Notes: a model not told the origin generated them from the letters alone. A stretch of 64,000 nucleotides of DNA from Halobacteroides halobius DSM 5150 (GCF_000328625.1 NC_019978.1:1054001-1118000), one strand, 5' to 3'. Counted from the stretch's first letter, positions 12,587 to 47,116 are shown. Numbers and translations: made by a program.

Positions 12587-15178
12587 ATGAATTCAATTAA
12601 TTTTTCTTTCTTAAAAAATAAGTGGCCTGATCTAAATGAATTAGGTAAATTAGCAGAAAAGAATCTATATAGTGACCCTAATACAACATTATTCAAATTA
12701 CGAAAGTTTGGAGAAAGAATAGTAGATTATATTTTTGAATATGAGAATATAACAGAATTAAAAGATAAGAGGCAATTTAATAAACTTAAAAGATTAGAAA
12801 AAGAAGAATTAATGGATGATAAGATATTAGAAATTTTTCATTCATTACGAAAAACAGGAAATGAAGCTGTTCATAATTCTTATGATTGTAGTGAGGATGC
12901 TAAAAGATTAATATCTTTAGCCTATGAAGCTGGAGTCTGGTTTATGCAACTTTATGATGAGTGGGATTTTGAACCAGAGGGATTTAAGTTACCAGATGAA
13001 AAAATGATGACTTTTTTAGATAGTAATAGAAAATTTATAACAACTGATCCTTTTGGAACTCAAGATAAGAAAGCAGAGAAGAAAGTTTGGAAAGCAGTTA
13101 AGAAATCATTTAGAGATAAAGAGTGTTTGGCTTATTGGAAGTATCCTATCTTTTCTAAGCGTGGAGAAGATCGCAGTGAACCTGATGTCTTACTTGTTGA
13201 TAAAGATCTAGGTTTAGTTGTATTAGAAGTTAATGAAGTAACTATAGATCAAATTAGTAGTATTAATGGTGGAGATTGGAGATATATAGACTTTACTAGA
13301 GATTATGGCTCTCCAATTAAAGAAGTTGAAGATCAATTATTTGCTTTATTAGGTTATTGTAATTCAGAACGAGAATTAAGAAGGAAAGTAACAGGAAGGT
13401 CAATTGTTACTCTACCAAATATTACTCGAAAAGAGTGGGAAAATAGCAATTTACCAGAAGTAAAAGAAGTTGGCCCGATTATTTTCGGGGATCAACTAGG
13501 AGAAAAAACTTTAGTAGAGGCGATTAATAAATGGAGACCAATGGCCGTAGGTCAGAAGTTAGATAATCAAAAGTGGAAGACATTAATTTCAGTTTTAACA
13601 GGTACAGTTCTATATCGACAGAAGGATAGTCATGATAATAAAGATAGACAGACTCGAGCTGGAGTAAAGAAAGAAATTAAAGAACAGTTACATAAGATTG
13701 ATCTTAAGCAAGAGAATATTGGAAAGACTATTCCACCAGGTCCTCAACGAATAAGAGGGATAGCTGGATCAGGCAAGAGTGTATTGTTGGCCCAAAAGGC
13801 GGCACATATGCATTTAAAGAATCCTGACTGGAAGATAGCCTTAGTATTCTTTACTCGTAGTTTATATGATGCTACTATTCAGCAACTAGATAGGTGGATG
13901 AAAAGGTTTACTAATGGAGAACAAGGTTATGATTCCCAAAAAGATACAAATTTAGAAGTATTACATGCTTGGGGGTCTAAAAACCAGGCTGGATTTTATC
14001 GTAAGGTCTGTGAAGAACATGGAGTCAAAGCTTTAGGAGCTATGAATAATAAACTAGGTGATAGAGATCCTAATCAGAAGTTGATTATGGCAGCTAAAAT
14101 ATTTTTACAGGAAACTAGTAATATAAATCAGTTGTATGATGCTATTTTAATTGATGAAGCCCAAGATTTAGTGGCAGATGATAGTGATTTAAAGTATGAA
14201 GGTAAACAACCTTTCTTTTGGTTAGCTTATAAAGTCTTAAAAGAGGTTAGTGATGATTATCAGAGACGATTAATCTGGGCTTATGATGAAGCTCAAAGTT
14301 TAACTTCCTTAAATATTCCTACAGCTCCTGAGTTATTTGGCGATGATCCTAAGTTTAAAAGAATGGTTAGTGGATTTCATGATGGTGGGATTAGAAAAAG
14401 TGAAATTATGCATAAGTGTTATCGAACTCCTGGGCCAATATTAGTAGCAGCTCATGCTATTGGAATGGGCTTATTAAGAGAAGAAGGTATGTTAAGAGGT
14501 TTTACTAGACAAAAAGATTGGGAAAATGTAGGTTATGAAGTTAGAGAAGGTAGCTTTAGGCTAGGAAATGAAATTGTATTACATCGCCCTAAGAAGACTA
14601 CTCCTAATCGGGTACCAGAGTTATGGGAGGATAAGACTATAGAGTTTAATAATTATAGAACTAGAGAAGAAGAGTTAGAAACCTTAGCCAAAAATTTAAA
14701 GAAGAATATCAAGCAAGAAGGTCTTAATCCTAGCCGTGATATATTAGTTATTGCTTTGGGAGAACATAGACCTGGTTATAAATTAAAGACTAAAACAGCT
14801 AAGCTTTTACAAAAACATGATATAGATATTTATATTCCTAAAGCAATAGATAAGAATGTAATCTATCCTAGGTATCCACAAGTAGATCCTAATAAATTTT
14901 GGCATCAGGATGCAGTAACAATTGCTAATATCTTTAGAGCTAAGGGTAATGAAGCATATCTAGTCTATGTAATTGGTTTAGACGAGATAGCTAAAAATGA
15001 AGCTGATGTTAGTTTGCGTAACCAGTTATTTGTAGCTTTAACTCGGGCCAAGGGTTGGGTTAAGATAAGTGGGATTGGTAATTACACTATGTATAAGGAG
15101 CTTAAAAATGTGATTGATAGTAAGAATACATTTGAATTTGAGTTTCAACGTCCAGTAGCCGATACAATTAGTAGTTAA
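12587..15178 (+). CDS. DUF4145/NERD/UvrD-type helicase fusion protein
   Basis: 863 residues, ATG with GGGAGGG upstream. The N-terminus (about 1-130) resembles the DUF4145 HEPN-like domain found in some HsdR proteins, with the R-x7-H motif RKTGNEAVH (about 88-96). A NERD-like PD-(D/E)xK nuclease region follows (about 155-300: EPDVLLVD...LVVLEVNE); the usual ExK lysine appears as N. An SF1 helicase follows: Walker A GIAGSGKS (about 391-398), DEAQD (about 522-526), YRTPGPILVAAHAI, and the C-terminal FVALTRAKGWVKISG (about 812-826). The gene has its own terminator and opens the defence island. A DNA-processing defence role is inferred from domains and context. Confidence 0.75.
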   Translation: MNSINFSFLKNKWPDLNELGKLAEKNLYSDPNTTLFKLRKFGERIVDYIFEYENITELKDKRQFNKLKRLEKEELMDDKILEIFHSLRKTGNEAVHNSYDCSEDAKRLISLAYEAGVWFMQLYDEWDFEPEGFKLPDEKMMTFLDSNRKFITTDPFGTQDKKAEKKVWKAVKKSFRDKECLAYWKYPIFSKRGEDRSEPDVLLVDKDLGLVVLEVNEVTIDQISSINGGDWRYIDFTRDYGSPIKEVEDQLFALLGYCNSERELRRKVTGRSIVTLPNITRKEWENSNLPEVKEVGPIIFGDQLGEKTLVEAINKWRPMAVGQKLDNQKWKTLISVLTGTVLYRQKDSHDNKDRQTRAGVKKEIKEQLHKIDLKQENIGKTIPPGPQRIRGIAGSGKSVLLAQKAAHMHLKNPDWKIALVFFTRSLYDATIQQLDRWMKRFTNGEQGYDSQKDTNLEVLHAWGSKNQAGFYRKVCEEHGVKALGAMNNKLGDRDPNQKLIMAAKIFLQETSNINQLYDAILIDEAQDLVADDSDLKYEGKQPFFWLAYKVLKEVSDDYQRRLIWAYDEAQSLTSLNIPTAPELFGDDPKFKRMVSGFHDGGIRKSEIMHKCYRTPGPILVAAHAIGMGLLREEGMLRGFTRQKDWENVGYEVREGSFRLGNEIVLHRPKKTTPNRVPELWEDKTIEFNNYRTREEELETLAKNLKKNIKQEGLNPSRDILVIALGEHRPGYKLKTKTAKLLQKHDIDIYIPKAIDKNVIYPRYPQVDPNKFWHQDAVTIANIFRAKGNEAYLVYVIGLDEIAKNEADVSLRNQLFVALTRAKGWVKISGIGNYTMYKELKNVIDSKNTFEFEFQRPVADTISS

Positions 15179-15186
15179 AAATCTTG

Positions 15187-15226
15187 AATAATAAGCCATG
15201 AGTTTTAAAACTCATGGCTTATTATT
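15187..15226 (+). terminator. Intrinsic terminator
   Basis: A perfect 20-bp inverted repeat (AATAATAAGCCATGAGTTTT and complement) that can work in both directions. It separates the helicase fusion from the hsdMS-like genes. Confidence 0.8.
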
Positions 15227-15330: not shown

Positions 15331-15359
15331 TTGACATAATAAATTAAAACAAGTATAAT
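15331..15359 (+). promoter_or_regulatory. Promoter of the hsdMS-like operon
   Basis: TTGACA (15331-15336), 17-bp spacer, TATAAT (15354-15359). About 70 bp around it are clearly related to 18195-18260. Confidence 0.8.
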
Positions 15360-15386: not shown

Positions 15387-16757
15387 ATGGATAAGATAAG
15401 AAATAAACTACAAGAAATAGGTTGTGATGAAATTAAGAAGAAGACTACTATTGAAGTAGAAGGTAAAGAGATTACTTATGATCTAGTAGGTTTGATTAAT
15501 AAGCAGCCAGTAGTAGGGATCGATATAACAGAAGATAATAATGATACAAAGCAGATTGGGATTTTATCTATGTTAAGCCAGAGTGAGCAGATAAATTATT
15601 ATGGAAGTTTTAATACTACTACTGAAGAATTTAACTGGTATCAACTGACTGAAGGAAACATATCTCAAATAGAGAAAGTGCCAGTATTACAAAAGGAGCA
15701 AGAGCTTAATCTAGAAGAAGTAAAGAAGTGGTATCAAGAGATCTTTCGCCTGTTTACTGCTAATAGTTCTTTAGGACATGATACTATTATAGAAGTACTT
15801 AAAGTTATACTAGTTAAGGTTGAACTTGATAATGGTAGATTAAATGCTTTAGAAGAAAATCTGACACTAGAAAATATTAAGTCAGCTTATCAAGAGATTA
15901 TTGCAACTAGTGGCTATAATCTAACTCAAGAGGTTTCTGTAACTGATAAGGTATTAGCAGAGTTTGCAACCATTAATTTAGCTAAGTTTAGAAGAGAAGA
16001 TCTATTAGCTGTATTTAATCAGGTTGTTTTTGATGCTTTAGGCAGTAAGCAAGGGCCAATCTTAACGCCTCAACCTCTCGTTAAGGCACTAGGAGAAATC
16101 TTTTCTCAGCAAGAAGGAGTAGAGACTATCTTTGATGGGTCAGCTAAAATGGGCCAACTTCTGACAGCCTGTAAAAGCAAACAGCCTCAGGCTAAGGTAT
16201 GGGGGATGAATCGAGACTTGACTTTAACTGAGATAGCTAAATTAAGATCATTAATTTTAGAACAAGATAATCAGTTTTTAGAAGGCAGTAGTTTAGAGTT
16301 AGAGAGAGAGAAAATTGATCAGTTACCAACTGAATTTGATTTAATAGTTTCCAATCCTGAGTTTAGTAAGCCGATTAAAGATAAAGAACTGATCAAAGAG
16401 TATCAGATAACTGATAAGTCTAGAGCTAAAGCAGAAGAGTTATATATCAATCTCTATTTAGACTTACTTACTGCAGGAGGTTATTTAGCTATTATTCTTC
16501 CTGATGGAGTCTTGACTAATAATAGAGCCCAAAATATTAGGGAATTTATCTTAGATAAGTCAGTCTTAAAGGCTGTAATCAGTCTACCAGAAACTATCTT
16601 TCGGCCAGCTACTTCTGTTAGAACTAGTTTAGTTATTCTTAAGAAAAAAGAGACTTTGGCCCAAGAGCAACCAGAGGTCTTTATGGCGACACCAGAAGAT
16701 AATCAAGCATTAGAAGAAGTAGTAGCTGACTTAGTAGAGTGGGGTGGATTGTTTTAA
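15387..16757 (+). CDS. HsdM-like N6-adenine methylase homologue with degenerate catalytic motifs
   Basis: 456 residues, ATG. The overall layout is that of a type I modification subunit: an N-terminal domain; HTPQPLVKAL-like target (here LTPQPLVKALGEIF); motif I region TIFDGSAKMGQLL (about 248-260); motif IV region DLIVSNPEFSKPI (about 312-324); then LDLLTAGGYLAIILPDGVL and FRPATSVRTSLVILKKK, as in HsdM. Motif I is normally DPACGTGG and is reduced to DGSAKMGQ; motif IV NPPF/Y is NPEF. Both SAM binding and catalysis are therefore doubtful. It overlaps the HsdS-like gene by one base (TAATG). It may serve as a structural partner rather than an enzyme (inference). Confidence 0.8.
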   Translation: MDKIRNKLQEIGCDEIKKKTTIEVEGKEITYDLVGLINKQPVVGIDITEDNNDTKQIGILSMLSQSEQINYYGSFNTTTEEFNWYQLTEGNISQIEKVPVLQKEQELNLEEVKKWYQEIFRLFTANSSLGHDTIIEVLKVILVKVELDNGRLNALEENLTLENIKSAYQEIIATSGYNLTQEVSVTDKVLAEFATINLAKFRREDLLAVFNQVVFDALGSKQGPILTPQPLVKALGEIFSQQEGVETIFDGSAKMGQLLTACKSKQPQAKVWGMNRDLTLTEIAKLRSLILEQDNQFLEGSSLELEREKIDQLPTEFDLIVSNPEFSKPIKDKELIKEYQITDKSRAKAEELYINLYLDLLTAGGYLAIILPDGVLTNNRAQNIREFILDKSVLKAVISLPETIFRPATSVRTSLVILKKKETLAQEQPEVFMATPEDNQALEEVVADLVEWGGLF

Positions 16758-18109
16758 TGGTTGCAGAGAATAGTTTCTTAGTTAACCCTGATCAAAAGGA
16801 GTTTATCGATAGACTTGATGCAGAATTTTATCATCCTAAGTACAGAAAAAATCCCTTTGTTAAAGACTTATTAGAACCCTTAGGTAGAGTAGCAGAGACT
16901 GTTAACCGAAAACCTGAACCAGGCCAAAGGTATCATTATATTGAGTTGAGTTCACTAGATAAAGAGACTAAAAGGATTAAAGAGGCAGAACAATTAGAGC
17001 TGTATGATTATCAAGACCTACCTTCTCGGGCCAAAACTATAGTCCAAGCAGGAGATATTCTAGTCTCTAAGTTAGGAGAGAAGATGATAACTGTAGTAGA
17101 GCAGAAGCATCAAGGTTCTGTAGCTACTAATGCCTTTATTGTTTTGCGACCTCAGGTGGATTTATCGTCAGAGGCCTTTGCTTTTATATTAGAGTTAGAA
17201 CCAGTTAAAAAACAGTTAGAGAGATACTCTTATGGTCTACGACAGAGAATTACTAATCGTGATTTTAAGAAGATAAAGCTTCCTATTCCAAAGAGGATAG
17301 AAGATAGAAGAAGGTTAGAGAGTAGAGTGGACTATTATCTTGCAGAGAAGAAGAGAGTAGTAGAGGAGTATCAGAGTTTATTCTCTCAACTAGAAGATAT
17401 ACTGTTAGAAGAGTTATCAATTGAAGTTACTACAGAAGAAGATAGAGACTCTTTTCAAGTGCCTGGAGAGATGATAGAAGTTGCTAGTTTTGCCCCTAAG
17501 TTTTATAGTCCAGAGTATGTGGTAGTATTAAATCAGATTAAAGAGCATGATTATAAAAGTTATAGATTAAGAGAATTAGTAGAGCAAGTAGCAGTGGGGC
17601 GGCCTTTAAGAGCTTCTAAAGAAGGAGATACTAAGTATTTAACAAGTAAAAATATAGAGCAGTTAGAAATCGATCTATCTAAGCTTGCTTCTACAGAGGT
17701 AAGTGGTACTATTTCTTCTTTAGAGGAAGGAGATCTAGTAGTAGTTACAGCAGGTAGTAAATTAGGAACTACAGCTTTAGTCTCAGAAGAAGCTGCTGGA
17801 GTTACCTTTAATAATCATATTTATCGCTTGGTAACAACAGAAAGAATTGACCAGTTTTATCTAGCTGTTTATTTAAATAGTATATTAGGGGATAAGCAGT
17901 TTAAGCGATATATAGGAGGAGCAATGCATCAGAATATTAGTAAACAAGACCTGTCTAACCTAGAGATATTACTGCCTCCTAAAGAGATACAACAGAGAAT
18001 AAGTAATAAGCTAAGAGAGGTTTATAAGCGGATCAAAGCTGGTTATCAACAATTAGAAGAAGAGAAGGAAGAAATAGAAGAAAAAGTAATTAGTATGTTG
18101 AGTAAGTGA
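16757..18109 (+). CDS. HsdS-like DNA specificity subunit
   Basis: 450 residues from ATG 16757, which shares its A with the stop of the HsdM-like gene. Two target-recognition halves are visible. The first has GQRYHYIELSSLD, AGDILVSKLGEK, ATNAFIVLRP and RITNRDFKKIKLPIP (about residues 50-180). The second has GDTKYLTSKNIEQ, EGDLVVVTAGSKLGTTALVS, NNHIYRLV and NISKQDLSNLEILLPP (about 285-410). Each half is followed by a long coiled helix. There is no HsdR gene before or after it. It would provide sequence-specific DNA recognition to the HsdM-like partner or to neighbouring helicase/nuclease genes (inference). Confidence 0.85.
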   Translation: MVAENSFLVNPDQKEFIDRLDAEFYHPKYRKNPFVKDLLEPLGRVAETVNRKPEPGQRYHYIELSSLDKETKRIKEAEQLELYDYQDLPSRAKTIVQAGDILVSKLGEKMITVVEQKHQGSVATNAFIVLRPQVDLSSEAFAFILELEPVKKQLERYSYGLRQRITNRDFKKIKLPIPKRIEDRRRLESRVDYYLAEKKRVVEEYQSLFSQLEDILLEELSIEVTTEEDRDSFQVPGEMIEVASFAPKFYSPEYVVVLNQIKEHDYKSYRLRELVEQVAVGRPLRASKEGDTKYLTSKNIEQLEIDLSKLASTEVSGTISSLEEGDLVVVTAGSKLGTTALVSEEAAGVTFNNHIYRLVTTERIDQFYLAVYLNSILGDKQFKRYIGGAMHQNISKQDLSNLEILLPPKEIQQRISNKLREVYKRIKAGYQQLEEEKEEIEEKVISMLSK

Positions 18110-18119
18110 AAATCTAATT

Positions 18120-18150
18120 AAATCGGGCTAGGAAGTTGGCCCGATTTTTT
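18120..18150 (+). terminator. Intrinsic terminator of the hsdMS-like operon
   Basis: AAATCGGGC and GCCCGATTT around a 10-nt loop, followed by TTT. The right arm contains TTGGCCC. Confidence 0.8.
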
Positions 18151-18215
18151 AGCACCTATTTTATAAAAACGCATAAAATTAAGTTTATAAAAACTAAGAT
18201 AATTAAGTATTAATA

Positions 18216-18244
18216 TTGACACAATGAATTAAAATTAGTATAAT
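18216..18244 (+). promoter_or_regulatory. Second copy of the hsdMS-type promoter
   Basis: TTGACA (18216-18221), 17-bp spacer, TATAAT (18239-18244). Like the promoter at 15331, it is followed by AAACACA and then a GAAGGGATAGTATG stretch resembling the hsdM start region. Confidence 0.75.
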
Positions 18245-18287
18245 AAACACAAGAAATGAAGGGATAGTATGGTGAATTAGTTAATAT

Positions 18288-18324
18288 TCAGAAGATAAAG
18301 TTATTAATATGTTGAATGGGTAAA
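18288..18324 (+). pseudogene. Scar: fused remnant of a duplicated hsdMS cassette
   Basis: The bases encode EDKVINMLNG and stop. The end of the intact hsdS-like gene reads EEKVISMLSK and stop, and the DNA is also alignable (18077-18112). With the promoter copy just upstream, this segment looks like a second hsdMS cassette in which everything between the start region and the last codons was deleted. Confidence 0.6.
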
Positions 18325-18339
18325 AAATGGAGGGGTAAA

Positions 18340-18864
18340 ATGTTAGCAGAAGATACAATTGAAGACGTATTAGAAGGTCAGGAGACTAGTGGACAGACTA
18401 CTATCAAGAATCCTAATTTAGAAGTAGATTTAGGTAGCAAGAAGGTCTTTCAAAGAAAAAAAGAAAGACTAGATAAAGAATCAAATATAGTTGAAGAGAT
18501 ATCTAAACTTAATGAGCGAAGTTCATCAGCAGTAAAGTTTGTTAATTATACTTCGCATCCAATTAGAGTTGTAAATGAAGAAGGTGATCTTGTTTTAAGT
18601 TTGGAACCGGCTAAAAGGGCAGTTAGAGTGAAGACTAGAATGGAAGATGTAGTTGACGTTGCAGGAGTACCGATAGCAACTAAGACTACTCGTAGAGTAA
18701 ATAAGCTACCCCCACCTAAACCAGGAGTATTGTATGTAGTCAGTGGCTACGTAAAGAATGTATTATCTCATCGAAGTGATTTAGTGGTGCCTGATATATC
18801 ATCTAAATCAATAATTCGAGATGAGAATGGAGAAGTAGAAGCTGTTCGCAGATTAAGTAGATAA
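18340..18864 (+). CDS. Uncharacterised protein with a conserved C-terminal domain
   Basis: 174 residues from ATG 18340, chosen because GGAGGGG (18329-18335) is 4 nt upstream; ATG 18316 lies in the hsdMS scar and lacks an SD. The N-terminal 60 residues are charged and probably disordered. The C-terminal domain contains KFVNYTSHPIRVVNEEGDLV, LEPAKRAVRV, GVPIATKTTRRVNKLPPPKP and GVLYVVSGYVKN...LVVPDIS. It recalls small beta-rich proteins found in phages and accessory regions, but I cannot name the family or a function. It uses the promoter left by the hsdMS scar and lies 39 bp before the next gene. Confidence 0.6.
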   Translation: MLAEDTIEDVLEGQETSGQTTIKNPNLEVDLGSKKVFQRKKERLDKESNIVEEISKLNERSSSAVKFVNYTSHPIRVVNEEGDLVLSLEPAKRAVRVKTRMEDVVDVAGVPIATKTTRRVNKLPPPKPGVLYVVSGYVKNVLSHRSDLVVPDISSKSIIRDENGEVEAVRRLSR

Positions 18865-18903
18865 ATAAAAGCCTAAAATAGAAACTGTAAGGAGGAGAGA
18901 TTA

Positions 18904-19650
18904 ATGGAAGAGATAATTGAAAGTATTAACTGGTCAGAAACTTCATTAAAAGAAGGTGCTAATTTAGTAGTTAAAGAGGTTTTAGGAGCTGATTTTGATT
19001 TATTAACAGCAATTGAGAATCCAAAATCAGAAAAATCTCAACAGGTATTTAGGGTAGCCAATCAAGTTATGTTTGATTATATGATTGATGAAGATTGGGA
19101 AATTATTAAGTCAATGCAACGAGAGATTGAAGAGGGAGATAAGAATCAACAACTTAGATATAAGTATATAGAACTAGGAGATTTTATGATTATTGCAAGA
19201 AAGGTTGAACCTTTTAGACCACGTAATCTAGAAGAGAGAAAAAAGGACTGGTATGTTTTAGGGTTCTGTACTTATCAAGACTTTCCTAAACTAGAAGAGA
19301 TCTATCCTAGACTGAAAGAAGAACTTAAGGACTATCAGGACTCTGAATGGGATTTACGTTTAGAAGTTGTAGGTGGTTTATTGAAGAATAGATTTTTAAT
19401 TGATGTAGAAACCAAAAAGTACTGGGCTGAAAAAGGTATTAGAGTAGAGACAGTTGGCTTTGATAAAGAGGGAGGCTGGAGAAGGAAGAGTCAAGTTGTT
19501 GGTAAGCAGATGGATGAATTAAATAAAGATGTAGCTAAGATAAAAGAGAAAGGCGGGCCAACTACTCTACATGAAGCACGACTGTTGAAAATGAAAGGAC
19601 AGTTTAATGATAACTGGTTAGGACAACTAAATCCTTATTATGGAGAATAA
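18904..19650 (+). CDS. Protein of unknown function in the nuclease-helicase operon
   Basis: 248 residues, ATG with AAGGAGGAG upstream. No signal peptide, membrane segment or recognisable catalytic motif. Acidic N-terminus; a middle part with YKYIELGDFMIIARKVEPF and WYVLGFCTYQDFPKLEEIY; a basic, Gly/Lys-rich C-terminal third (GGWRRKSQVVGKQMDEL) ending DNWLGQLNPYYGE. It lies between the conserved small gene and the AddB-like gene, in the same direction with short gaps, so it may be a subunit of that system. No function is assigned. Confidence 0.55.
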   Translation: MEEIIESINWSETSLKEGANLVVKEVLGADFDLLTAIENPKSEKSQQVFRVANQVMFDYMIDEDWEIIKSMQREIEEGDKNQQLRYKYIELGDFMIIARKVEPFRPRNLEERKKDWYVLGFCTYQDFPKLEEIYPRLKEELKDYQDSEWDLRLEVVGGLLKNRFLIDVETKKYWAEKGIRVETVGFDKEGGWRRKSQVVGKQMDELNKDVAKIKEKGGPTTLHEARLLKMKGQFNDNWLGQLNPYYGE

Positions 19651-19651
19651 T

Positions 19652-19687
19652 ATGTGGTTAGGAGAGTTTAACCAGTTTTATGAGTAG
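19652..19687 (+). other. Short echo of the upstream gene's C-terminus
   Basis: Directly after the stop of the previous gene, an 11-codon frame reads MWLGEFNQFYE and stop. It resembles that gene's own end, NWLGQLNPYYGE. It looks like the leftover tail of a second, diverged and deleted copy. Similarity is short, so chance cannot be excluded. Confidence 0.35.
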
Positions 19688-19724
19688 CAGATTAGATTGA
19701 TTTCCATAAAGGAGTGTGTTAAGG

Positions 19725-22334
19725 ATGGAGATGAATTATATAGATTATTCTGATAATCTATTTGAAACTGTAGTAGATAGCAGTAAGTCTAGGGTCTATG
19801 TCTTTAATAATTATGATAGTAAATTAGAAGCAGAGAATTATTATACCAGGCCTTTTTTAGCAGAAGAGAGTTCATTTTTATTGATGTCTGAATTTAAAGA
19901 AAGATTATTTCCTAGCGATAAACTACTTTTAAAAGAAGAAAAGTTAGTTATCATTTTTTATGAACTTTTAACTGAGGAAGATAAGAAGCAGTTAAAGATC
20001 AGTGGTTATAATGATGTAATTAATTTGGCCCATGACTTTTTTAATTTCTATAGAGAGTTAGCTGAATATAAGGTTGATGAGATTAAGGGACTGAAGGGCT
20101 GGCAGCAAGAGAAGTATCAGATTTTTGAGAGGCTACGCCAGAGGTATATAGCTAAGATGGAGCAGTTAGATTATACAGACAAAATATTAACTTATAATGA
20201 GGCTAATTTTAATTTAAAATTTCTTCAGAAATTTACCGAAGTAGTCTTTGTCAGTATTCTTAGTTTTACGCCATTAGAGAAAGAGATAATAGCTAAGTTA
20301 CAAACAGCAGGTCATAGAGTGCAGCTTTATAATCAGATCAAACCAGAAGACTATGATGAAGAGACTTTGCAGTTAAAGTCAGTTACTCTACCTGACAAGT
20401 TAGAACAGGAGATAGAAATCTATCAGACTAATGAAGATTTATTGCAATTGGTAACTGCTCTTACTAAAGTAGATAGAGCTGAAGATGGTTATACTATCTT
20501 GGATGCTGATCTGCAGAATAGTAATTATCATAACTTATTATCTAGTGCTAAGGTTAACATAGATCAAGATATCAGTTTTACTAAGACTAGGCTGTATCGG
20601 TTTCTAGAAACTCTTTATAATCTATTACAGAATGCTAGTCTAAGTAATGGTGAGGTTAGATTGAAGTTAGAAGATCTAGTGGAGGCCAGTTATTTAAATA
20701 GCTTTAGAGATTACTATAATTTAGGTTGGAGTGAGTTGGATGGTCTTCAGCAGTTGGCCCAAGATGATTATGTCTATTTCTGTGAAGAATTAATTACTGA
20801 CCAATTAACTTCCTTTAGAGCTATATTAAAGGAGATAGAAGAGTTAAGTCAATTAAGAACTTTAAATCAGTTTTGTAGTTATTTAGAAGATATCGAGATA
20901 GAAAAGTTGAATGATAGTCAGTATAGAGATGATCTCTCTACCTTTTTTAGTTCACTAGCAGAGTTACAGTCAATTGAAGAGTTGGAGGTTGTCAGCTCCT
21001 GGGATCAATATTTTACTAATAGTCCTCAAGGCTTATTCTTATTAATACTCAATTATTTAAAGTTTAAGCAGGTTAAAAAGGTAGGTACTGGTAATGAAGC
21101 TGATATTGAAGTTAGAGATTTATTGACTAGCAGTTTTGCTCAGCGGGATCAAATTATGCTGTTAAATCTAGCTGAAGGTAGAGTTCCCTTGGCCCAGGAA
21201 GCTAATTTTTTATTAACTGACAGCCAAAGGACTCAATTAGGTTTAAAAAGCTATCAGCAGCAGCGCTTGGAGATGAAGTATAAATTCTTTCGCCATCTAT
21301 TAAGCTCTAAGCAAGTGGTAATCTTTGCCATTAAAGATCAAGCTAACAATATAGCTACTAGTTCTTTTGTCGAAGAGTTGAAACTAAAGTATAATCTAAC
21401 TAGTAAAGAGCTAGAGGTTACTAGTCAAGATTATCCAGAAATTATGAAGAATATCTTTAATTCTAATTCTGACTTACTGGCTAGTAATTTCAATTTAACT
21501 ACTGAGGATGGAGATAAATTAAAGATAATAGCCGATGATTTCTCCAATCAAGAACTATCAATGACTTACTATAAGTATTCTACTCTAAAGCGCTACTGTA
21601 GTTATAGATTTTATTTAGATCATATTGTTGGATTAGAAGAACAGGTAGAATTTAGTAAACAGATGAGTCCGAAGATCATAGGGATACTTGTTCATCAAAC
21701 TTTTGCAGAACTAATTGATAAGCTAGAAGGTAAGATTAAGGCTAATGATCTTCGATTTGATAGAGCAGTAGTTAAAGAGATATTAACTAATAAAATAGAA
21801 TTATTTGATCTGAAAATTCCTGATTATTATGAACAATACTATTTAGAAGTAATGTTTAAGTCGATTGAGGAATCTATTGAGTACTTCTTTAAGATGCTAT
21901 CTAATAGAGTTGAAGGAACTATCACAGATATTACTACAGAATGGCAACCCTCTCAGAATGATAAGCGAAGTTTTATTGAAAATGAAGCATTTGATATTTG
22001 CTTAAATGGTAGAGTTGATTTAATTATTGAAACAGATAAAAGTAAGCAGATTATAGATTATAAGACTGGTAGTGGAAATACAGACCAGTTAGATTTTTAT
22101 CACTTACTTTATGAATCGGATTTTGAAGTAGGAGAGATAATTAATAAGAGTATGTATAATGTAATGGAGAGAAAATTTGAAAGAACTTATCCTGGCTCTG
22201 AAGAGAAGTTTGCAGAAACATTAAAGGAAGTATTAGAAGAGCAGATTGTTAATAGTCTAGAGTATCAGACTGACTTTAAGTCACGGTGTAAGAGATGTAA
22301 CTATCTTGATGTCTGTCAGGAGGGATTAAAGTGA
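19725..22334 (+). CDS. AddB-like Fe-S PD-(D/E)xK nuclease/inactivated helicase subunit
   Basis: 869 residues from ATG 19725 (AAAGGAG about 10 nt upstream; the GTG at 19716 abuts the SD). The C-terminal nuclease domain has GRVDLIIE (Asp about 764) and IIDYKTGSG (Asp/Lys about 777/779). An AddB-type 4Fe-4S staple is formed by one Cys before the nuclease (RYCSYRFYLDHIVGLEE, about 625) and three at the end (SRCKRCNYLDVCQEG, about 855, 858, 864). No Walker A is visible, as in AddB/RexB-type partners. The gene overlaps the next, an SF1 helicase-nuclease, by 4 bases, so they probably form a two-subunit complex for DNA-end processing. Confidence 0.75.
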   Translation: MEMNYIDYSDNLFETVVDSSKSRVYVFNNYDSKLEAENYYTRPFLAEESSFLLMSEFKERLFPSDKLLLKEEKLVIIFYELLTEEDKKQLKISGYNDVINLAHDFFNFYRELAEYKVDEIKGLKGWQQEKYQIFERLRQRYIAKMEQLDYTDKILTYNEANFNLKFLQKFTEVVFVSILSFTPLEKEIIAKLQTAGHRVQLYNQIKPEDYDEETLQLKSVTLPDKLEQEIEIYQTNEDLLQLVTALTKVDRAEDGYTILDADLQNSNYHNLLSSAKVNIDQDISFTKTRLYRFLETLYNLLQNASLSNGEVRLKLEDLVEASYLNSFRDYYNLGWSELDGLQQLAQDDYVYFCEELITDQLTSFRAILKEIEELSQLRTLNQFCSYLEDIEIEKLNDSQYRDDLSTFFSSLAELQSIEELEVVSSWDQYFTNSPQGLFLLILNYLKFKQVKKVGTGNEADIEVRDLLTSSFAQRDQIMLLNLAEGRVPLAQEANFLLTDSQRTQLGLKSYQQQRLEMKYKFFRHLLSSKQVVIFAIKDQANNIATSSFVEELKLKYNLTSKELEVTSQDYPEIMKNIFNSNSDLLASNFNLTTEDGDKLKIIADDFSNQELSMTYYKYSTLKRYCSYRFYLDHIVGLEEQVEFSKQMSPKIIGILVHQTFAELIDKLEGKIKANDLRFDRAVVKEILTNKIELFDLKIPDYYEQYYLEVMFKSIEESIEYFFKMLSNRVEGTITDITTEWQPSQNDKRSFIENEAFDICLNGRVDLIIETDKSKQIIDYKTGSGNTDQLDFYHLLYESDFEVGEIINKSMYNVMERKFERTYPGSEEKFAETLKEVLEEQIVNSLEYQTDFKSRCKRCNYLDVCQEGLK

Positions 22335-25300
22335 TTAATATTTTAAAAGCCAGTGCTGGAACAGGAAAGACATATCGATTATCTTTAGAGTATGTAGCAG
22401 CTTTATTAAATGGAGAAGATTTTGAAGAAATAGTAGTGATGACCTTTACTCGTAAGGCTACAGCTGAGATACGAGAGCGAATATTTGAGCATTTAGCTGA
22501 TATCTTAGATCAAGGTAGTGCAAGTCAAGTTTTTCAAAATTTACAGGAAGTATATGATAGTATTGAATTAGACTTAAATCAGTTAGAGACAGTCTATAGA
22601 AAAATGCTACATAATAAGGATGAAATTAAAATTTATACTATAGATAGTTTTATTAATAGTATCTTTAAACAGGCTATAGCCCCCTATCTTGATATTTATT
22701 CCTATCAGATAGTGGATGGTGAACAAAACAAGGAAGTAATAGAGCGAGTATTTAAAGGTTTACTTGATAATCCATCAGATTTTAGACTAATGGAGCAGTT
22801 TCTACTTGATAATGTAGAGCGAGATATAGATAATTACCTTACCTTAATACAGCGATTGCTAAAGAATAGGTGGAAGTTATTATTGCTTGAGGAAGAGGAG
22901 CGATCTCAGCGGAAGATAGGTAATTTGGTAGCAGAATTTGAATCTGCTGTAGATACTTTAAAGGCTATTGCTGTAGAGAAAGGGAATGATTTTTCTGAAA
23001 AATACTTTAAAAAAGATTTTCGGCAGTATCTTGACCAGGAGGGTTTGACTAGTAAAAAGGATTATATTATTAAGAATTATAAGCAGTTTTTTAAAGATAA
23101 GTTTTGGAATGGTAATAAGACACGAGGCAAGAAAGTAGCTAGTTTACGACAGGATTTAGAGGTTAGGTATGATAACTTTAGACAACAGTTAGCTAATTAC
23201 TTTTATAATCAAGAGCTGATCCCCTATGAAAGAGAATTATTTAAATTATCTCAGCGAGTATTTAAGATCTATGATAGAGTTAAATTTAAAGAGAAGCTAT
23301 TTACGCATGCTGATATTAGCAACTATACATATCAGTACCTCTATTCTGAAGAATTAAATTTATTGGAAGGAGAAAGTGTTAGTGATTATTTTTTTGAGCT
23401 GTTAGGTAGTGAGGTAAATAACCTCTTAATTGATGAATTTCAGGATACCAGTATCTTACAGTGGAGAATACTACAACCTTTAGTAGCTGAATGTGAGAAT
23501 GTAATAGCTGTTGGTGATGAAAAACAGTCTATCTATGGTTGGCGAGGAGGAGAGAAAGAGTTATTTGCTAATTTAGAAGAGATACTAAATGGAGATAGTG
23601 AATCACTGCAGACTTCATATCGGAGCCACAAAGAGATTATTGACTTTGTAAATCGCTTTTTTGAGGGGATTTATGGTAACTGGGATTATCAGGGGGTAAA
23701 TCATCTATCTAACAAAGATGGAGGATATGTTGAGGTTTTATATGGTAATCAAGAGGCCAAGATTAATACTGATACTAAAGCCTTTAGCAAGCTCAGTGAG
23801 GAAGAGCAAGAACAACTGCATCAACTTAATCAGACAATAACTGCTGATTTAAAGGCTGAAATAGCTGAGACTATCAAAGAGAACTTCAATAATTATAATG
23901 AGCTAGGGATTTTGGCCCGGTCTAATAATGAACTAGCAGAGATTGCTGATCAGTTAGATAAGGAAGGGATTCCTTATATCTTAGAAAGTAAAGATAGTTT
24001 AATCGAACATCAAGCAGTAAAGCCACTTTATTTTTTATTGACTTATCTAACTTATAATGATTACTTGGCCCTTATTAAGTTTTTACGTAGTGAGTTAGTA
24101 GGTGTCAATAATGGCTTATTAAAGTATTTGCTTCAAAATAAAAGTAAGGTTATAGAGTATCTGGCTGGTAGAGATGTAGAATTAAGAGATACTGTTTTAA
24201 CTGAAGTGTTAGCTACTATTAGAGATTTAAAAGAGTTAGATTTTAATTCATTAACTAACTATCTAGTAGAAGATTTAGGTTTGCTACAGTTATATCAAGA
24301 TAATGCTAGTGCACTTAAGAATATTTATTATTTCTTTGCAGAGTTAAAGAAATTTGAATCTCTAGCTAAGTTTATGGCTTATATAGAAGAGAATAAAGAC
24401 AGCACAGAACTAAAACAGGTGGGAGTGCAGAATGCTAATGCAGTGCAGCTGATGACGATTCATAAAGCTAAGGGACTTTCTTTTGAGACAGAATTCTTCT
24501 ACTGGAATCCTAAGTCTTATAGCAGTAGAGGAGATAACTTAAAAATTTATCTAGACTTTGATGAGCAATTTGAGCAGGTTGAAGATTATCTCCTGACTAA
24601 TTCGAGATATAGTCATCTCTTTGAGTATCTTGATTTAGATTTTCAAGAGCAAGAAGAGGAGAAGGCCTTTGTCGAAGAGATTAATAACGTTTATGTAGCA
24701 CTGACCCGACCAGTGAGAAATTTATTTCTTTATATTAAGGCTCCCTGTCGTTATCAACGTACCTGGGCTACTAAGGAATGGCAAGGGAAGGATTATGAAA
24801 TCTATGAAGATGCAATCTTAAGAGGAACTGGCCAAGAGTTACTGAAGGATTTGGCCCAGAAAAAGACTTTTGGTGAGTTAATAGTTAATGATCAGGGGCA
24901 GGATCAACGACATATTGAATTGCCTAATCTGCAGGAGTATTTTCAAGTAGAAGAGGTTAAGGAGCTAGATAATTCACAAGACTTACAGTTGAATATAGAT
25001 AAAGAGGTTAAGAGGATTAAAGGATTAGCTGTTCATTATTATTTAGAGTATATTAAGTATGCTACAGTAGAGGAGAGAGAGTATGCCCAAAGTATGGTCT
25101 TAGCCAAGTATGGCAATATACTTGGCCCGGAGAGAATAAAAGAAGTCATTACTAGAGTAGAAAGATTGATTAGTAGCCACCAAGATTACTTTAGCCAGAG
25201 ATGGGATGTCTATACTGAATATCAGTTAATGGCTGGAGATGAAAGTTATAGAATTGATAGGTTACTAGTAGATCAGCAGAAGCAGGAAGTTATGATAGTT

Positions 25301-25414
25301 GATTATAAGACAGGAAGTACACAAGAGCAAGAGCAATTAGATAACTATGCAGCTATAGTTGAGTCTAAGTTGACTGCTGATTATGAAGTTAGTGCTGAGT
25401 TTTTAGAAGTATAG
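22331..25414 (+). CDS. AddA-like UvrD/RecB helicase-nuclease
   Basis: 1027 residues from a GTG inside the stop of the preceding gene (GTGA overlap). SF1A motifs: Walker A ASAGTGKT (residues 7-14), VVMTFTRKATAEIRERI, LLIDEFQDTSILQWRIL (about 365-381), GDEKQSIYGWRGG (about 394-406), TSYRSHKEI, MTIHKAKGLSFETEF, VYVALTRPVRNLF. A C-terminal RecB-type nuclease domain has YRIDRLLVD and MIVDYKTGS (about 973-995). It is shorter than typical AddA (about 1200). With the AddB-like partner it should unwind and degrade duplex DNA ends. The location in a defence island suggests an accessory rather than housekeeping copy (inference). Confidence 0.85.
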   Translation: MINILKASAGTGKTYRLSLEYVAALLNGEDFEEIVVMTFTRKATAEIRERIFEHLADILDQGSASQVFQNLQEVYDSIELDLNQLETVYRKMLHNKDEIKIYTIDSFINSIFKQAIAPYLDIYSYQIVDGEQNKEVIERVFKGLLDNPSDFRLMEQFLLDNVERDIDNYLTLIQRLLKNRWKLLLLEEEERSQRKIGNLVAEFESAVDTLKAIAVEKGNDFSEKYFKKDFRQYLDQEGLTSKKDYIIKNYKQFFKDKFWNGNKTRGKKVASLRQDLEVRYDNFRQQLANYFYNQELIPYERELFKLSQRVFKIYDRVKFKEKLFTHADISNYTYQYLYSEELNLLEGESVSDYFFELLGSEVNNLLIDEFQDTSILQWRILQPLVAECENVIAVGDEKQSIYGWRGGEKELFANLEEILNGDSESLQTSYRSHKEIIDFVNRFFEGIYGNWDYQGVNHLSNKDGGYVEVLYGNQEAKINTDTKAFSKLSEEEQEQLHQLNQTITADLKAEIAETIKENFNNYNELGILARSNNELAEIADQLDKEGIPYILESKDSLIEHQAVKPLYFLLTYLTYNDYLALIKFLRSELVGVNNGLLKYLLQNKSKVIEYLAGRDVELRDTVLTEVLATIRDLKELDFNSLTNYLVEDLGLLQLYQDNASALKNIYYFFAELKKFESLAKFMAYIEENKDSTELKQVGVQNANAVQLMTIHKAKGLSFETEFFYWNPKSYSSRGDNLKIYLDFDEQFEQVEDYLLTNSRYSHLFEYLDLDFQEQEEEKAFVEEINNVYVALTRPVRNLFLYIKAPCRYQRTWATKEWQGKDYEIYEDAILRGTGQELLKDLAQKKTFGELIVNDQGQDQRHIELPNLQEYFQVEEVKELDNSQDLQLNIDKEVKRIKGLAVHYYLEYIKYATVEEREYAQSMVLAKYGNILGPERIKEVITRVERLISSHQDYFSQRWDVYTEYQLMAGDESYRIDRLLVDQQKQEVMIVDYKTGSTQEQEQLDNYAAIVESKLTADYEVSAEFLEV

Positions 25415-25545: not shown

Positions 25546-26046
25546 GTGGGTACAATGACAGCACAAATTTTAGTAGGTAGAGCTCATCCAAATCATGGTG
25601 GGATTAATCCGAGCCATTATCTATTTTTATCAGAGGCTTTGACCTTAGTTCCTCAAAATATCTTTCCTGAGGAAGTAGAAGATCAGAGAAGGATAACTTG
25701 GATTCCTACTAGGGAAAATATATTAGAGGATGCTTTATTAATGATTGGCCTTTATGTCTTAGAAGATGAAAGATTACTTGAACTGGCTCATGAGTATTTT
25801 ACTGACTTTTCAGCTGATAGGATAGAATTACATAATGATATTGATGAAGATAAGCTTGAAGAATTATATCAGGAGTGTCGTAAGTTAGATTATCAATACA
25901 AAATTGTAATTAATGACTTTGATGATGGTAGATTACATCATAAAGTATTAGAAGAGTATTCAATGGATGTTAATCTCTGTACTCCAGATTATAAGCGTTG
26001 GTATTCTAGGTGGCAAGATGAGGTTAGAACTGAAGGAACTTTGTAA
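25546..26046 (+). CDS. Uncharacterised 166-residue protein
   Basis: Starts at GTG 25546, with AGGGAG 10 nt upstream; ATG 25555 would be too far from the SD. The sequence begins MGTMTAQILVGRAHPNHGGI, then NPSHYLFLSEALTLVPQNIF and WIPTRENILEDALLMIGLYV, and is acidic towards the C-terminus. There is no membrane segment and no known catalytic motif that I can identify. It sits 131 bp after the AddAB-like pair and about 180 bp before the dynamin-like operon, probably as its own unit. Confidence 0.55.
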   Translation: MGTMTAQILVGRAHPNHGGINPSHYLFLSEALTLVPQNIFPEEVEDQRRITWIPTRENILEDALLMIGLYVLEDERLLELAHEYFTDFSADRIELHNDIDEDKLEELYQECRKLDYQYKIVINDFDDGRLHHKVLEEYSMDVNLCTPDYKRWYSRWQDEVRTEGTL

Positions 26047-26226
26047 TAGAATCCTTACAAGATTAGAGGTGAAAAATATATTGATTAAAAGAGTCCAATT
26101 CTTTTAAGGATTGGTCTATATTTATGTTAACTTGAAATATTTTAAAATTTAGAAAGGTAATATTATATAATATATATAAATATAGTAAATAGAATAATTA
26201 TATGATAGAGAATGGGAGGTAAAGGA

Positions 26227-28794
26227 ATGAACAAACAGAAATGGGAAGAAGAAAAGAAAAAATATATTTCTATACTAGAGAATAGTAATGAAGTTATAGA
26301 ATATGTATTAAAAATAAGTAATAAAGAAGCAATTATTAATCAAGAAACTTTAGATGAAATAAGAGGGTATTATGAAAAAAATAAATTTTATTTAGAGAAA
26401 TTAGAGAAAGATATATTTGAATTGGCAATTGTAGGGCTTGAAAAAGCAGGAAAAAGTACTTTTTCTAATGCGTTGATATCCAATGATGTATTACCATCTA
26501 AATCTACTAGATGTACTTTTACTTCTACTCAATTAGAGTATGGTGATGATGAAGCAATAGTTGAATTTTATGATAGAGAAGAATTTAATCAGCTTTTTAG
26601 AGAAATGTTACATAATATTAAGTATGAAAATGCTGATCAGATTAATTTTGATACTTTAGAATTAAAAGAAGTAGAATTATATTTTGATAACTTACGTGAA
26701 ACAGATCCAAATCTATATAAAGCTGTTGCAAGTAAAACTGAAGAGGATATTAAAGAAATTATTAAAGGTAAAGATCAAATAGCAAGATATTTAGATAAGA
26801 GACCACGTACTTTTAAAAATAAAGAGCTTAATTCAGAAGAATTAAGAGGTTTTATAACTGATAAGACAAAGTCCCGAGCTGTAAAGAAAGTAAAAATAAA
26901 ATCTTCTAAATTAAATAGTATGAAGAATATAATTATTTATGATGTTCCGGGATTTGATTCACCTACTCAAGTACATGAAGAACAGACATTAGAAAAATTA
27001 AAAAATGCTGACGGGATTATTTTAATTACAGATGTTGGTGGTACTCCTAATTTAAGGGGAACTCAACTTAACTTATTAAATAGAGAAAGTGATTACGATG
27101 GAATTAAATTAAATGAGAAGTTATTTATATTCGGAAATAAGATAGATAACGTTAATGATGAAAAGGAAGCAAAAGAGAACATAGCAGCTTTAAGGTCTGA
27201 TGCAGTTGATAAACATAAAATATTAAAAGAAGATAGATTCTTTGTTGGATCTGCTTATGCTTATTTAGAAAAACAAGGTATTTTATCTTCAATTGGCGCT
27301 GAAAAAGATTTAGTAAGATTAGGTTTAAGTGATAATATAGAAAAATTAAAAGAATCATTAGAAGATTATTATCGAACAGAGAGATTCGAAATCTTAAAGA
27401 AGAGAGTTAATAGAAATATAGAAGAGATTAAACAGATTTTTAATATAGTAATAAAAAATAATAAGAAAAACTTTGATATTGAAAATATAAATTATTTAAA
27501 TCGAAAATTATTATTAAATTTTATAACAGAGTCTGAGAAAAAGATTAAAGATTTATTGTCTGATTTAAGAGATAGATTAAGATCAGATATTTTAAGTGAA
27601 AGATATTTTTCTGAAAAATTACAAGATTTGATTGATAAATCTTTTGTCCAGATAACTGAGGATCAAATAGAAGAAGTTAGAAAAAAGGAAAGTGATACTT
27701 CAACGGAAGAATTTCCTGCGACTGCTGTAAATTCTTCAGTTAGAAAAGAATTATATAAAGATTTTATGGAGAAATTTACTACAATAATAGTAGATTTAGC
27801 AGATGAAAAAGCTGAAGAAATTAATGATGAAATTGTAGAGTTATTTATGCAGGATATTTTTGATATGTCTCAGGAACATATATATTATGAAGAAGTTAAA
27901 GAAGAAGTAGAAAATTTGATTCAAAAATTAACCTTTGATGTTTCTTATGATAAAAGAAGTTTTATTCAATTAATAGAGAGATTCTCTGGAGATTTATTTG
28001 ATATTTTAATTAAATATCCCTTTGGTACAGTAGATAGGTTTAATAAATTTAAAGAGGCTAAAGAAGACTTTTATAGTTTAGCTATGTATCATAGCGATAA
28101 AAATTCAAATAAGCCTTATTATATGCAACCATTAGTTAATACTATATTAGCTCATAAAAAGTCTGGTACTACTTTAAATAAAATAGAAAAGAGATTATTT
28201 GATGCGTTGGATCAAGTTTCTGCAACTTCTGGATTGTTTTCAGATAAAACAGATGAACGATTTATAAATAATGTAGCTAATGAATTAGAAGATGCAGGAA
28301 TGGATTTAGATATTATTCTGAAAGATATAAGAGAAGATTTAGATGAAATTAACCAGGATGAATTTTCTGATCATAGGAAAGAAATAGCTAAAACTATTAT
28401 AAAAAGAAAGTTAAATAACTATTTAAATGAAGAAAACTTTATTAGTGAAGGTACTTATTTAAAAGAGATAACTAAACAATTAACTCCTGCTCAGACTAAG
28501 GATGAAGTTTTACAAGAAATTAATACAGATATAAGTCATCTAAAAGAATTGCTAAAAGAAGCAGTTATTAATGCTATTTCTTTAGAAAAGCCTTTTGTTT
28601 CTACAGTTACTAAAAAGATATATAGGTTAATAGATAAAAGTGATGGAGAAGAATTTAGTGATTTTTATTCTAAATATACTAATAAAATTCTATATGATGA
28701 GTTTTCTGAGAATGAAAGAAAAGAAGCTATTTATAAAAATAGGAAGAAAATAATTAAAAAAATAAAAGAGGCTACTAGAAAACTGGAGGTATAG
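26227..28794 (+). CDS. Bacterial dynamin-like GTPase, first of a pair
   Basis: 855 residues from ATG 26227 (GGGAGG 7 nt upstream). GTPase motifs: G1 GLEKAGKST (about 70-78) followed by ALISNDVLPSKSTRCTFT with the G2 threonines; G3 DVPGFD (about 239-244); G4 NKID (about 304-307). After about residue 380 it is a long helical, charged region, as in dynamin stalks. There is no clear transmembrane segment; a paddle region cannot be recognised by eye. It is followed after 3 bp by a second dynamin-like gene. Paired bacterial dynamins (for example LeoA/LeoBC-type or DynAB) remodel membranes, and some act in phage defence. Confidence 0.8.
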   Translation: MNKQKWEEEKKKYISILENSNEVIEYVLKISNKEAIINQETLDEIRGYYEKNKFYLEKLEKDIFELAIVGLEKAGKSTFSNALISNDVLPSKSTRCTFTSTQLEYGDDEAIVEFYDREEFNQLFREMLHNIKYENADQINFDTLELKEVELYFDNLRETDPNLYKAVASKTEEDIKEIIKGKDQIARYLDKRPRTFKNKELNSEELRGFITDKTKSRAVKKVKIKSSKLNSMKNIIIYDVPGFDSPTQVHEEQTLEKLKNADGIILITDVGGTPNLRGTQLNLLNRESDYDGIKLNEKLFIFGNKIDNVNDEKEAKENIAALRSDAVDKHKILKEDRFFVGSAYAYLEKQGILSSIGAEKDLVRLGLSDNIEKLKESLEDYYRTERFEILKKRVNRNIEEIKQIFNIVIKNNKKNFDIENINYLNRKLLLNFITESEKKIKDLLSDLRDRLRSDILSERYFSEKLQDLIDKSFVQITEDQIEEVRKKESDTSTEEFPATAVNSSVRKELYKDFMEKFTTIIVDLADEKAEEINDEIVELFMQDIFDMSQEHIYYEEVKEEVENLIQKLTFDVSYDKRSFIQLIERFSGDLFDILIKYPFGTVDRFNKFKEAKEDFYSLAMYHSDKNSNKPYYMQPLVNTILAHKKSGTTLNKIEKRLFDALDQVSATSGLFSDKTDERFINNVANELEDAGMDLDIILKDIREDLDEINQDEFSDHRKEIAKTIIKRKLNNYLNEENFISEGTYLKEITKQLTPAQTKDEVLQEINTDISHLKELLKEAVINAISLEKPFVSTVTKKIYRLIDKSDGEEFSDFYSKYTNKILYDEFSENERKEAIYKNRKKIIKKIKEATRKLEV

Positions 28795-28797
28795 GAA

Positions 28798-32142: not shown

Positions 32143-32745
32143 ATGAAGAAATATAGCACTAGAATTAAATCTACGGATTTTATGTATATAGAGTTCAAAA
32201 AGGTTGCTAGACTTAAGTTAGAAAATCCAAATTTAACTTCTAAAGAAATAAAGACTAGAGCAGTAGAAGATAATATATTTCAAGTTGATACCGTAAATAG
32301 AAGAAAGACTATTGCTAAAGCTATGATTAGAAGACTTAAAGTAGTAGATGAATATTTGCTTGAGCAATTAGCAAATGGAGTTCTTGATACCAGTAAGCAG
32401 ATAACATTATATACCATTTTAAAAAATGACCGATTATTTTTTGAATTTATGAGAGAGGTATATAGAGAAAAGTATTTAATTAAAGATCCATATCTAACTG
32501 ATAAAGACTTTAATATCTTCTTTCATAAAAAAAGTGAACAAAGTGAAAAAGTAGCTGGGTGGAAAGATTATACATATTATAAATTAAAGCAGACAATTGT
32601 TAGAATTTTATTTGAAGCTGGATTTATTAATCATCAGGATGAACGAAGAATAGTTAAGCCAATTATGAACCAAGAACTGATTGAACATTTAAATGAATTA
32701 GGAGATCAAGAATATGCAAAAGTAATGTTAGCTAAAATCAGATAA
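32143..32745 (+). CDS. brxA: BREX protein BrxA (DUF1819)
   Basis: 200 residues, the normal BrxA size. BrxA is a small helical, DNA-binding protein of BREX type 1, a phage-defence system that marks self DNA and blocks phage replication. Here it starts MKKYSTRIKSTDFMYIEFKK, has NRRKTIAKAMIRRLKVVDEY and ends with YYKLKQTIVRILFEAGFINH, as in the family. ATG with AAGGAAGTG upstream; TATAAT at 32096-32101 suggests a promoter. It is the first gene of a five-gene run with gaps of 14-25 bp. Confidence 0.85.
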   Translation: MKKYSTRIKSTDFMYIEFKKVARLKLENPNLTSKEIKTRAVEDNIFQVDTVNRRKTIAKAMIRRLKVVDEYLLEQLANGVLDTSKQITLYTILKNDRLFFEFMREVYREKYLIKDPYLTDKDFNIFFHKKSEQSEKVAGWKDYTYYKLKQTIVRILFEAGFINHQDERRIVKPIMNQELIEHLNELGDQEYAKVMLAKIR

Positions 32746-32759
32746 CAAGGAGGGGTTGA

Positions 32760-33341
32760 ATGTCTCGGATTCATGATCGTTTAGATGAGATATTGCCACG
32801 GATTCAGGAAGAAAGTTTTATGGAGGGAAAGGGATTAGGTAATGAAGTAGGATATTATGTATTTGACTATGAACCAGAAGATGAATTATTAGTTAGGGAT
32901 CATGTACAATTTGTTAAAGAGAAAATGAATAATAAAGAAATATATCCTGATATTATAGAATTTAATCTGTATCATGTAATGTTAGATATATTAGAAGATA
33001 AAGGTTATTTAAGAAAAATAATGAAGATGGAAGAGAGTAGGGGAACTGATAAAGCTCTAAATGGACTTAAATCTAGTTTGCGATTAACCAGTAGTGGTAG
33101 TAATTCTTTGGTGAAATATATTACGGATAAGGTTTCTGATGATCAAATTGTATTTATAACTGGTGTTGGCCAAGCTTGGCCCGTAATTAGATCACATACT
33201 GTACTCAATAATTTACACCAAGTCTTAGATAGTGTGCCAGTAGTTATGTTCTTTCCTGGTGAGTATAGTGGTTCTGAATTAATTTTATTTGGAAAGATTA
33301 AAGATGATAATTACTATCGTGCTTTTAGATTGGTTGAGTAG
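32760..33341 (+). CDS. brxB: BREX protein BrxB (DUF1788)
   Basis: 193 residues, typical BrxB length. Features: GNEVGYYVFDYEPEDELLVR near residue 30, VEFNLYHVMLDIL-type segment (here IEFNLYHVMLDILEDKGYL), and VFITGVGQAWPVIRSHTVLN followed by PVVMFFPGEYSG...ELILFG. This last block is the characteristic DUF1788 end. BrxB is an essential BREX component of unclear mechanism. Strong AAGGAGGGG SD; 14 bp after brxA. Confidence 0.9.
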   Translation: MSRIHDRLDEILPRIQEESFMEGKGLGNEVGYYVFDYEPEDELLVRDHVQFVKEKMNNKEIYPDIIEFNLYHVMLDILEDKGYLRKIMKMEESRGTDKALNGLKSSLRLTSSGSNSLVKYITDKVSDDQIVFITGVGQAWPVIRSHTVLNNLHQVLDSVPVVMFFPGEYSGSELILFGKIKDDNYYRAFRLVE

Positions 33342-33360
33342 AAGATAGAGGAGGGATTAG

Positions 33361-36954: not shown

Positions 36955-36979
36955 TATCTAAAAACTGGAGGGATATGCT

Positions 36980-40447: not shown

Positions 40448-40471
40448 CCCTTTGTTACGGAGGTGTGATAG

Positions 40472-43031: not shown

Positions 43032-43124
43032 TATCTTATAGATATCTATTAGTTTTGCAGGATTTTTAAGGAATTAATTGAAATAAATAATAAAGAAGTT
43101 TATTAAATTATGGAGGGGAACGAA

Positions 43125-45769: not shown

Positions 45770-45785
45770 GTGAGGTGTAACTATA

Positions 45786-47039: not shown

Positions 47040-47116
47040 AATTAATCTAGATATCAAAGTAAAGAAATATCTGTAAATGATATTGTCAAAAACTTGAGTT
47101 TGTGAGGTGGATTATA

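Follow-up and report, generated by a model that had tools for sequence, protein, structure and literature searches.

A candidate HsdM-HsdS cassette with a Crn4-related partner in a defence island of Halobacteroides halobius DSM 5150

The locus described here was compared with type I restriction-modification (R-M) systems (HsdRMS), MADS, Crn4 ring nucleases and AddAB/RecB-like helicase-nucleases. Orphan M-S pairs are known. N6-methylases of the HsdM type carry motif I, canonically D-P-x-C-G-x-G, and motif IV, NPP[FY]. Formation of m6A by PacII is affected by N-A/F-A changes in its NPPF (PMC9613975), and BrxX lost methylation when its NPPY carried Y511A (PMC11842806). The dimeric ring nuclease Crn4, once called Unk01, requires H15 and R112 (PMC12830947).

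Locus and HsdM*-HsdS pair

The window, i.e. the whole stretch of DNA analysed (64,000 nucleotides), corresponds to positions 1054001-1118000 of the closed, low-GC genome of H. halobius DSM 5150 (2,649,255 bases; G000). The family of this organism also includes Orenia metallireducens (G005, hereafter Orenia). Features of the hsdM*-hsdS region are collected in Table 1. A type I BREX set (32143-42994) lies downstream of AddAB and is followed by a type I Zorya set (43110-50635). The region around hsdM*-hsdS is thus a defence island, and transposase and group II intron genes are found at its flanks.

Table 1. Features of the hsdM*-hsdS region, numbered from the first letter of the window
Feature	Position	Strand	Remarks
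DUF4145 + putative PD-(D/E)XK + SF1 helicase protein	12587..15178	+	863 aa; own terminator 15187-15226; judged independent
Sigma-70 type promoter of hsdM*-hsdS	15331..15359	+	TTGACA-17-TATAAT, 12/12 consensus positions
HsdM*	15387..16757	+	456 aa; N6-methylase family; extra N-terminal ~100 aa; motifs I (DGSAKMGQ) and IV (NPEF) degenerate
HsdS	16739..18109	+	456 aa; two recognition domains; 19-base overlap with hsdM*
Terminator-like hairpin 3' of hsdS	18127..18153	+	-
Second sigma-70 type promoter, before U182-U248	18216..18244	+	12/12 consensus, spacer 17
U182	18316..18864	+	~70 aa N-terminal extension + Crn4/Unk01-family domain; T79-x-H81, R168 kept
U248	18904..19650	+	function unassigned; homologues in Orenia and G028
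AddB	19716..22334	+	PDDEXK_1 at 7e-22; judged neighbour, outside cassette
AddA	22331..25414	+	UvrD domains, RecB-like helicase models; judged neighbour, outside cassette

The initial annotation had placed two genes of unassigned function and then AddB/AddA after hsdS on the same strand, and these positions and this order were confirmed. It had also described the genes as linked by a shared promoter type. The two perfect promoters are indeed similar, their surroundings aligning at 70/92 columns, i.e. beyond the hexamers alone, but together with the hairpin they split the genes rather than join them. This promoter type was considered ordinary because the window has four perfect copies on its plus strand, including one that precedes a tRNA-Pro gene. 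Judged from the sequence, hsdM*-hsdS and U182-U248-addB-addA are the likely transcription units, with gaps of 39, 65 and -4 bases in the latter. Comparison with relatives suggests that the real start of U182 is at 18340.

HsdM* was matched by Pfam N6_Mtase (1e-24), the fold being recognised over 217 residues, and scored just 52 bits against TIGR00497 (hsdM; cut-off 243). Its N-terminal ~100 aa had no match among solved structures, and its AlphaFold model was of low confidence (pLDDT 39.5). HsdS was intact, and the two recognition halves previously reported were recovered as two Methylase_S stretches, i.e. two recognition domains (TRDs); the protein also matched solved S subunits. An HsdM fold, overlapping genes, a two-TRD HsdS and matches in the PDB to M and S subunits of type I enzymes liken the pair to type I R-M systems. 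It differs from them by the lack of HsdR in the genome, by degenerate motifs I and IV and by TRDs that are conserved instead of diversifying. The best NCBIfam matches of HsdM* and HsdS were MAD2 and MAD5 of the MADS system, but their scores were far under the cut-offs (HsdM*, 78.5 bits against 720; HsdS, 83.8 against 400) and other MADS genes were not recognised at the window locus.

The initial annotation had reported that no HsdR follows. This holds genome-wide: no HsdR (PF04313) was detected in the closed genome, while the same search was positive in Orenia and in another relative, G006 (one each), and in 9/14 control genomes. HsdM* is the sole HsdM-type N6-methylase of the genome (the remaining PF02384 matches are the PglX of the window, a 286-aa frame and a 1105-aa frame), so that no canonical HsdM is available to HsdS. 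The 863-aa protein encoded just upstream of hsdM*, omitted from the initial annotation, carries an N-terminal DUF4145 that is ~60% identical to the HsdR N-termini of relatives over ~140 aa. As a substitute for HsdR it was rejected, homologues being present in five genomes without this cassette; in one of these (G001) an ordinary HsdM-like gene lies about 8 kb off. Near full-length homologues were found in several relatives. The protein is apparently a single-gene candidate.

The damage to motifs I and IV noticed initially was confirmed in the HsdM* frame. Motif I reads FDGSAKMGQLL, compared with a DP-x-C/A-G-rich motif in the neighbouring methylases, and neither GxG (DGSAKMG) nor NPP[FY] (NPEF) is present. 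In the two orthologues (window and Orenia), the second proline of motif IV is replaced by Glu or Met and the first G of the motif I GxG by Lys or Arg. Motif IV of the three U182-linked HsdM proteins reads NPEF (window), SPMF and IPPL. The control set consisted of the other N6-methylases with a readable motif in the same three genomes, and NPPF or NPPY was read in 10/10. Motif IV is thus broken in 3/3 U182-linked proteins vs 0/10 others (random labels: 1/286, about 0.0035). Activity of HsdM* has likely been lost, but NPEF retains the N and F of motif IV, and for that reason HsdM* may keep residual methylation.

HsdM* and HsdS of the window are 45% and 40% identical to those of Orenia, and identity is evenly spread. 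In this single pair, TRD1 is 47-60% and TRD2 30-50% identical, which is not below the rest of HsdS; in the single control pair, the canonical type I systems of G006 and Orenia, identity is 86% for HsdM, 73% for HsdR and 7-30% for the TRDs. Since the TRDs of the HsdM*-linked HsdS are as conserved as HsdM*, whereas the control TRDs drop to 7-30%, the alignments point to selection for a fixed target. Sequence-specific recognition without methylation, as initially proposed, can be inferred from these recognition domains conserved across two genera and from the motif IV loss in all three U182-linked HsdM proteins.

U182, U248 and the recurring cassette

U182 was found in 3/61 relatives sampled, and 3/3 adjoin an HsdM-HsdS pair, these three loci (n=3) all coming from one family. 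The order in Orenia is hsdM*-hsdS-U248-(PQQ propeller)-U182-(PDDEXK_13), after which comes a DUF499/DUF3780/DUF1156 set. In G006, hsdM-hsdS-U182 is followed on the same strand by an Mre11-like gene, two Rad50-like pieces, a NurA-like piece (called by motif) and HerA-like genes. The added Rad50-like and HerA-like genes match the mad3 and mad8 models, a likeness to MADS at this locus. In this Mre11-Rad50-NurA-HerA-like operon of G006 (L004 6786-12556), the Rad50, NurA and HerA frames are split or short, with draft errors possible. The Mre11-Rad50-NurA-HerA set was considered accessory in G006 because its Mre11 was matched, weakly, in only one other of the 61 genomes. HsdM and HsdS of G006 are 19% and 24% identical to those of the window. 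Given such divergence, the link of U182 to HsdM-HsdS is not merely the shared descent of one close cluster.

The smaller recurring cassette comprises HsdM*-HsdS and U182; U248 may be present or absent, and the neighbours vary. Pattern scans of genome and viral contigs, which are insensitive to distant relatives, returned only the Orenia copy, and a description of such a cassette was not found in the open-access literature. The main uncertainty is the strength of the association between U182 and HsdM-HsdS, seen in three genomes of one family.

The last ~110 residues of U182 matched PADLOC Unk_01 (1.6e-18), and the protein matched solved Crn4a (9sma_A) at 5.5e-5 with the single sequence and at 3.2e-8 once a profile of three sequences was used. 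All three cassette U182 proteins have the T-x-H motif. In the window, H81 and R168 align with H15 and R112 of Crn4; at the R112 position Orenia has K and G006 has L, and 12/12 stand-alone U182 homologues (genomes and plasmids) have R. The N-terminal extension is common to the three cassette proteins and conserved among them. U182 of the window has a C-terminal domain homologous to Crn4a, with T-x-H and, by alignment, R kept. The cassette proteins differ from Crn4 in the extension, in their association with HsdM-HsdS instead of type III CRISPR and in the replacement of the catalytic R in 2/3 members. Homologues of U182 were also found in Paenibacillus phages and in plasmids; none of the plasmid matches inspected had HsdM*/HsdS alongside. 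A Cas10 search, which scored E. coli too and is thus not specific, gave one sub-threshold match and none convincing in the H. halobius genome, and one barely over the cut-off in Orenia. A link of U182 with nucleotides is uncertain because Orenia and G006 carry K and L, respectively, in place of the catalytic R, and because no convincing Cas10 was found in H. halobius.

The Orenia homologue of U248 is encoded immediately 3' of hsdS, after a 29-base gap. Another homologue (G028, L081 8764-19801) lies in a region where an integrase, a primase-like protein and a ClpP-type protease were recognised by eye; U248 therefore also travels in a prophage-like element. The predicted structure of U248 was of moderate confidence (73.6). 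Foldseek returned no match under 1e-3 for this model; VIA-align Z scores did not exceed 5, and the weak rows included several restriction-endonuclease folds.

AddAB and competing explanations

The assignment of AddB and AddA in the initial annotation was borne out by the nuclease and helicase matches of Table 1 and by the adjacency of an AddA with UvrD helicase domains and an AddB with a PD-(D/E)XK nuclease. A homologue of AddB is present in 35/61 genomes sampled; within the window's own order it is not universal (3/13 sampled genomes). The AddB-AddA pairs of G011, Orenia, G016, G028 and G030 are 42-72% identical to that of the window, and no homologue of HsdM*, HsdS, U182 or U248 was found within about 9 kb of AddAB in these five loci. 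By eye, AddAB follows an inositol-monophosphatase-like gene in G011 and lies beside topoisomerase and chemotaxis genes in Orenia, where HsdM* and AddB are on different contigs (C26 and C8, respectively). The AddB-AddA pair of the window has Halanaerobiia counterparts and is unusual solely in its neighbours. The order hsdM*-hsdS-18340-18904-addB-addA, for which a search had been proposed, recurred nowhere among the genomes searched and so failed the recurrence test set beforehand. AddAB as the effector of the cassette was rejected on distribution and genomic context. It appears to be an independent recombination/repair enzyme, located downstream of U182-U248 by chance.

The preferred reading, held tentatively and at a little under an even chance, is a non-methylating DNA reader of fixed specificity with a nucleotide-binding partner, probably acting in defence, whose neighbouring effectors vary. 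HsdM*-HsdS would be a type-I-derived DNA-binding complex with methyl transfer lost or nearly lost. It would read a fixed target sequence and most likely mark or sense foreign DNA; a defence role is likely from the context beside BREX and Zorya. Through its Crn4 fold, U182 would bind cyclic or oligo-adenylate-like nucleotides and might cleave them; U248 would sometimes join HsdM*-HsdS and U182. The downstream effector would vary, being Mre11-Rad50-NurA-HerA directly after the cassette in G006 and, in Orenia, the product of a PD-(D/E)XK nuclease gene; the window shows no evident dedicated nuclease. If this is true, an R-M recogniser has become purely a reader of DNA, and one must ask how self DNA escapes without methylation; the newly described Crn4 fold is then also placed outside type III CRISPR. 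A bolder proposal, which we regard as doubtful, is a modular family of defence systems: a catalytically dead HsdM-HsdS would serve as fixed-target sensor, the Crn4-fold protein as nucleotide-responsive switch, and DNA-processing effectors (Mre11-Rad50-NurA-HerA, PD-(D/E)XK nucleases) would be exchanged between genomes.

Motif damage in a genome without HsdR would also be expected of a decaying type I R-M relic, in which hsdR is gone and hsdM drifts without function. This is unlikely: both genes are full length and intact in two genera, with ~45% and ~40% identity spread evenly and including the TRDs, whereas drift should have broken the frames by now. A consensus promoter precedes hsdM*, and the distant second pair of G006 has also lost motif IV beside U182. 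An orphan type I methyltransferase (M2S) that remains active, has an atypical motif IV and serves as epigenetic regulator or for self-protection would agree with the N and F kept in the window, with the extent of the recognised N6_Mtase fold and with the known occurrence of orphan M-S pairs. The substitutions in motifs I and IV of the two orthologues make this improbable, as motif IV changes affect m6A in PacII (PMC9613975) and abolish methylation in BrxX (PMC11842806). Equally improbable is a counter-defence or mobile-element cassette in which a dead HsdM-HsdS decoy is combined with a prophage gene and an anti-CRISPR ring nuclease of the Crn4 type. Crn4 homologues do occur in phages and plasmids (PMC12830947), a U248 homologue lies in the prophage-like region of G028, and the island is bordered by transposase and group II intron genes. 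However, the genome has neither an HsdR to block nor a convincing Cas10, the cassette adjoins BREX and Zorya, and the plasmid matches of U182 that were inspected have no HsdM*/HsdS beside them.

The model of the initial annotation, in which sequence recognition by HsdM*-HsdS delivers DNA to the neighbouring AddAB, a processive nuclease, is by far the least probable. The common strand, the short gaps from U182 to addA and the restriction of AddB to few genomes of its own order speak for it, but AddB and AddA occur without the cassette genes nearby in five relatives, with ordinary neighbours in G011 and Orenia. In Orenia both are present on different contigs, and hsdM*-hsdS looks like its own transcription unit. 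Should the preferred reading of a non-methylating DNA reader be false, the locus would still be an example of a repair enzyme beside a defence island mimicking an effector.

Other genes of the island and of the Orenia locus

U166 (25546-26046; 166 aa, without a significant Pfam family) was considered as a member of the cassette, being also near the G006 locus. It was rejected, as it is present in 16/398 phylum genomes sampled and in unrelated contexts. The ZorC-like protein of the Zorya set (45786-47039) has 417 aa, vs 551-575 aa for ZorC models, and its PADLOC match covers the C-terminal part only. In Orenia, a DUF1156 methylase, DUF3780 and DUF499 with Hma-like scores lie beside the cassette (L006 1217-9002), and a Zorya-like set was then recognised by eye on L007. 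Between AddAB and BREX (26212-31323), the window encodes tandem large dynamin-like GTPases of 860 and 841 aa (starts 26212 and 28798), the second of which matches the LeoA model at 2.6e-14.
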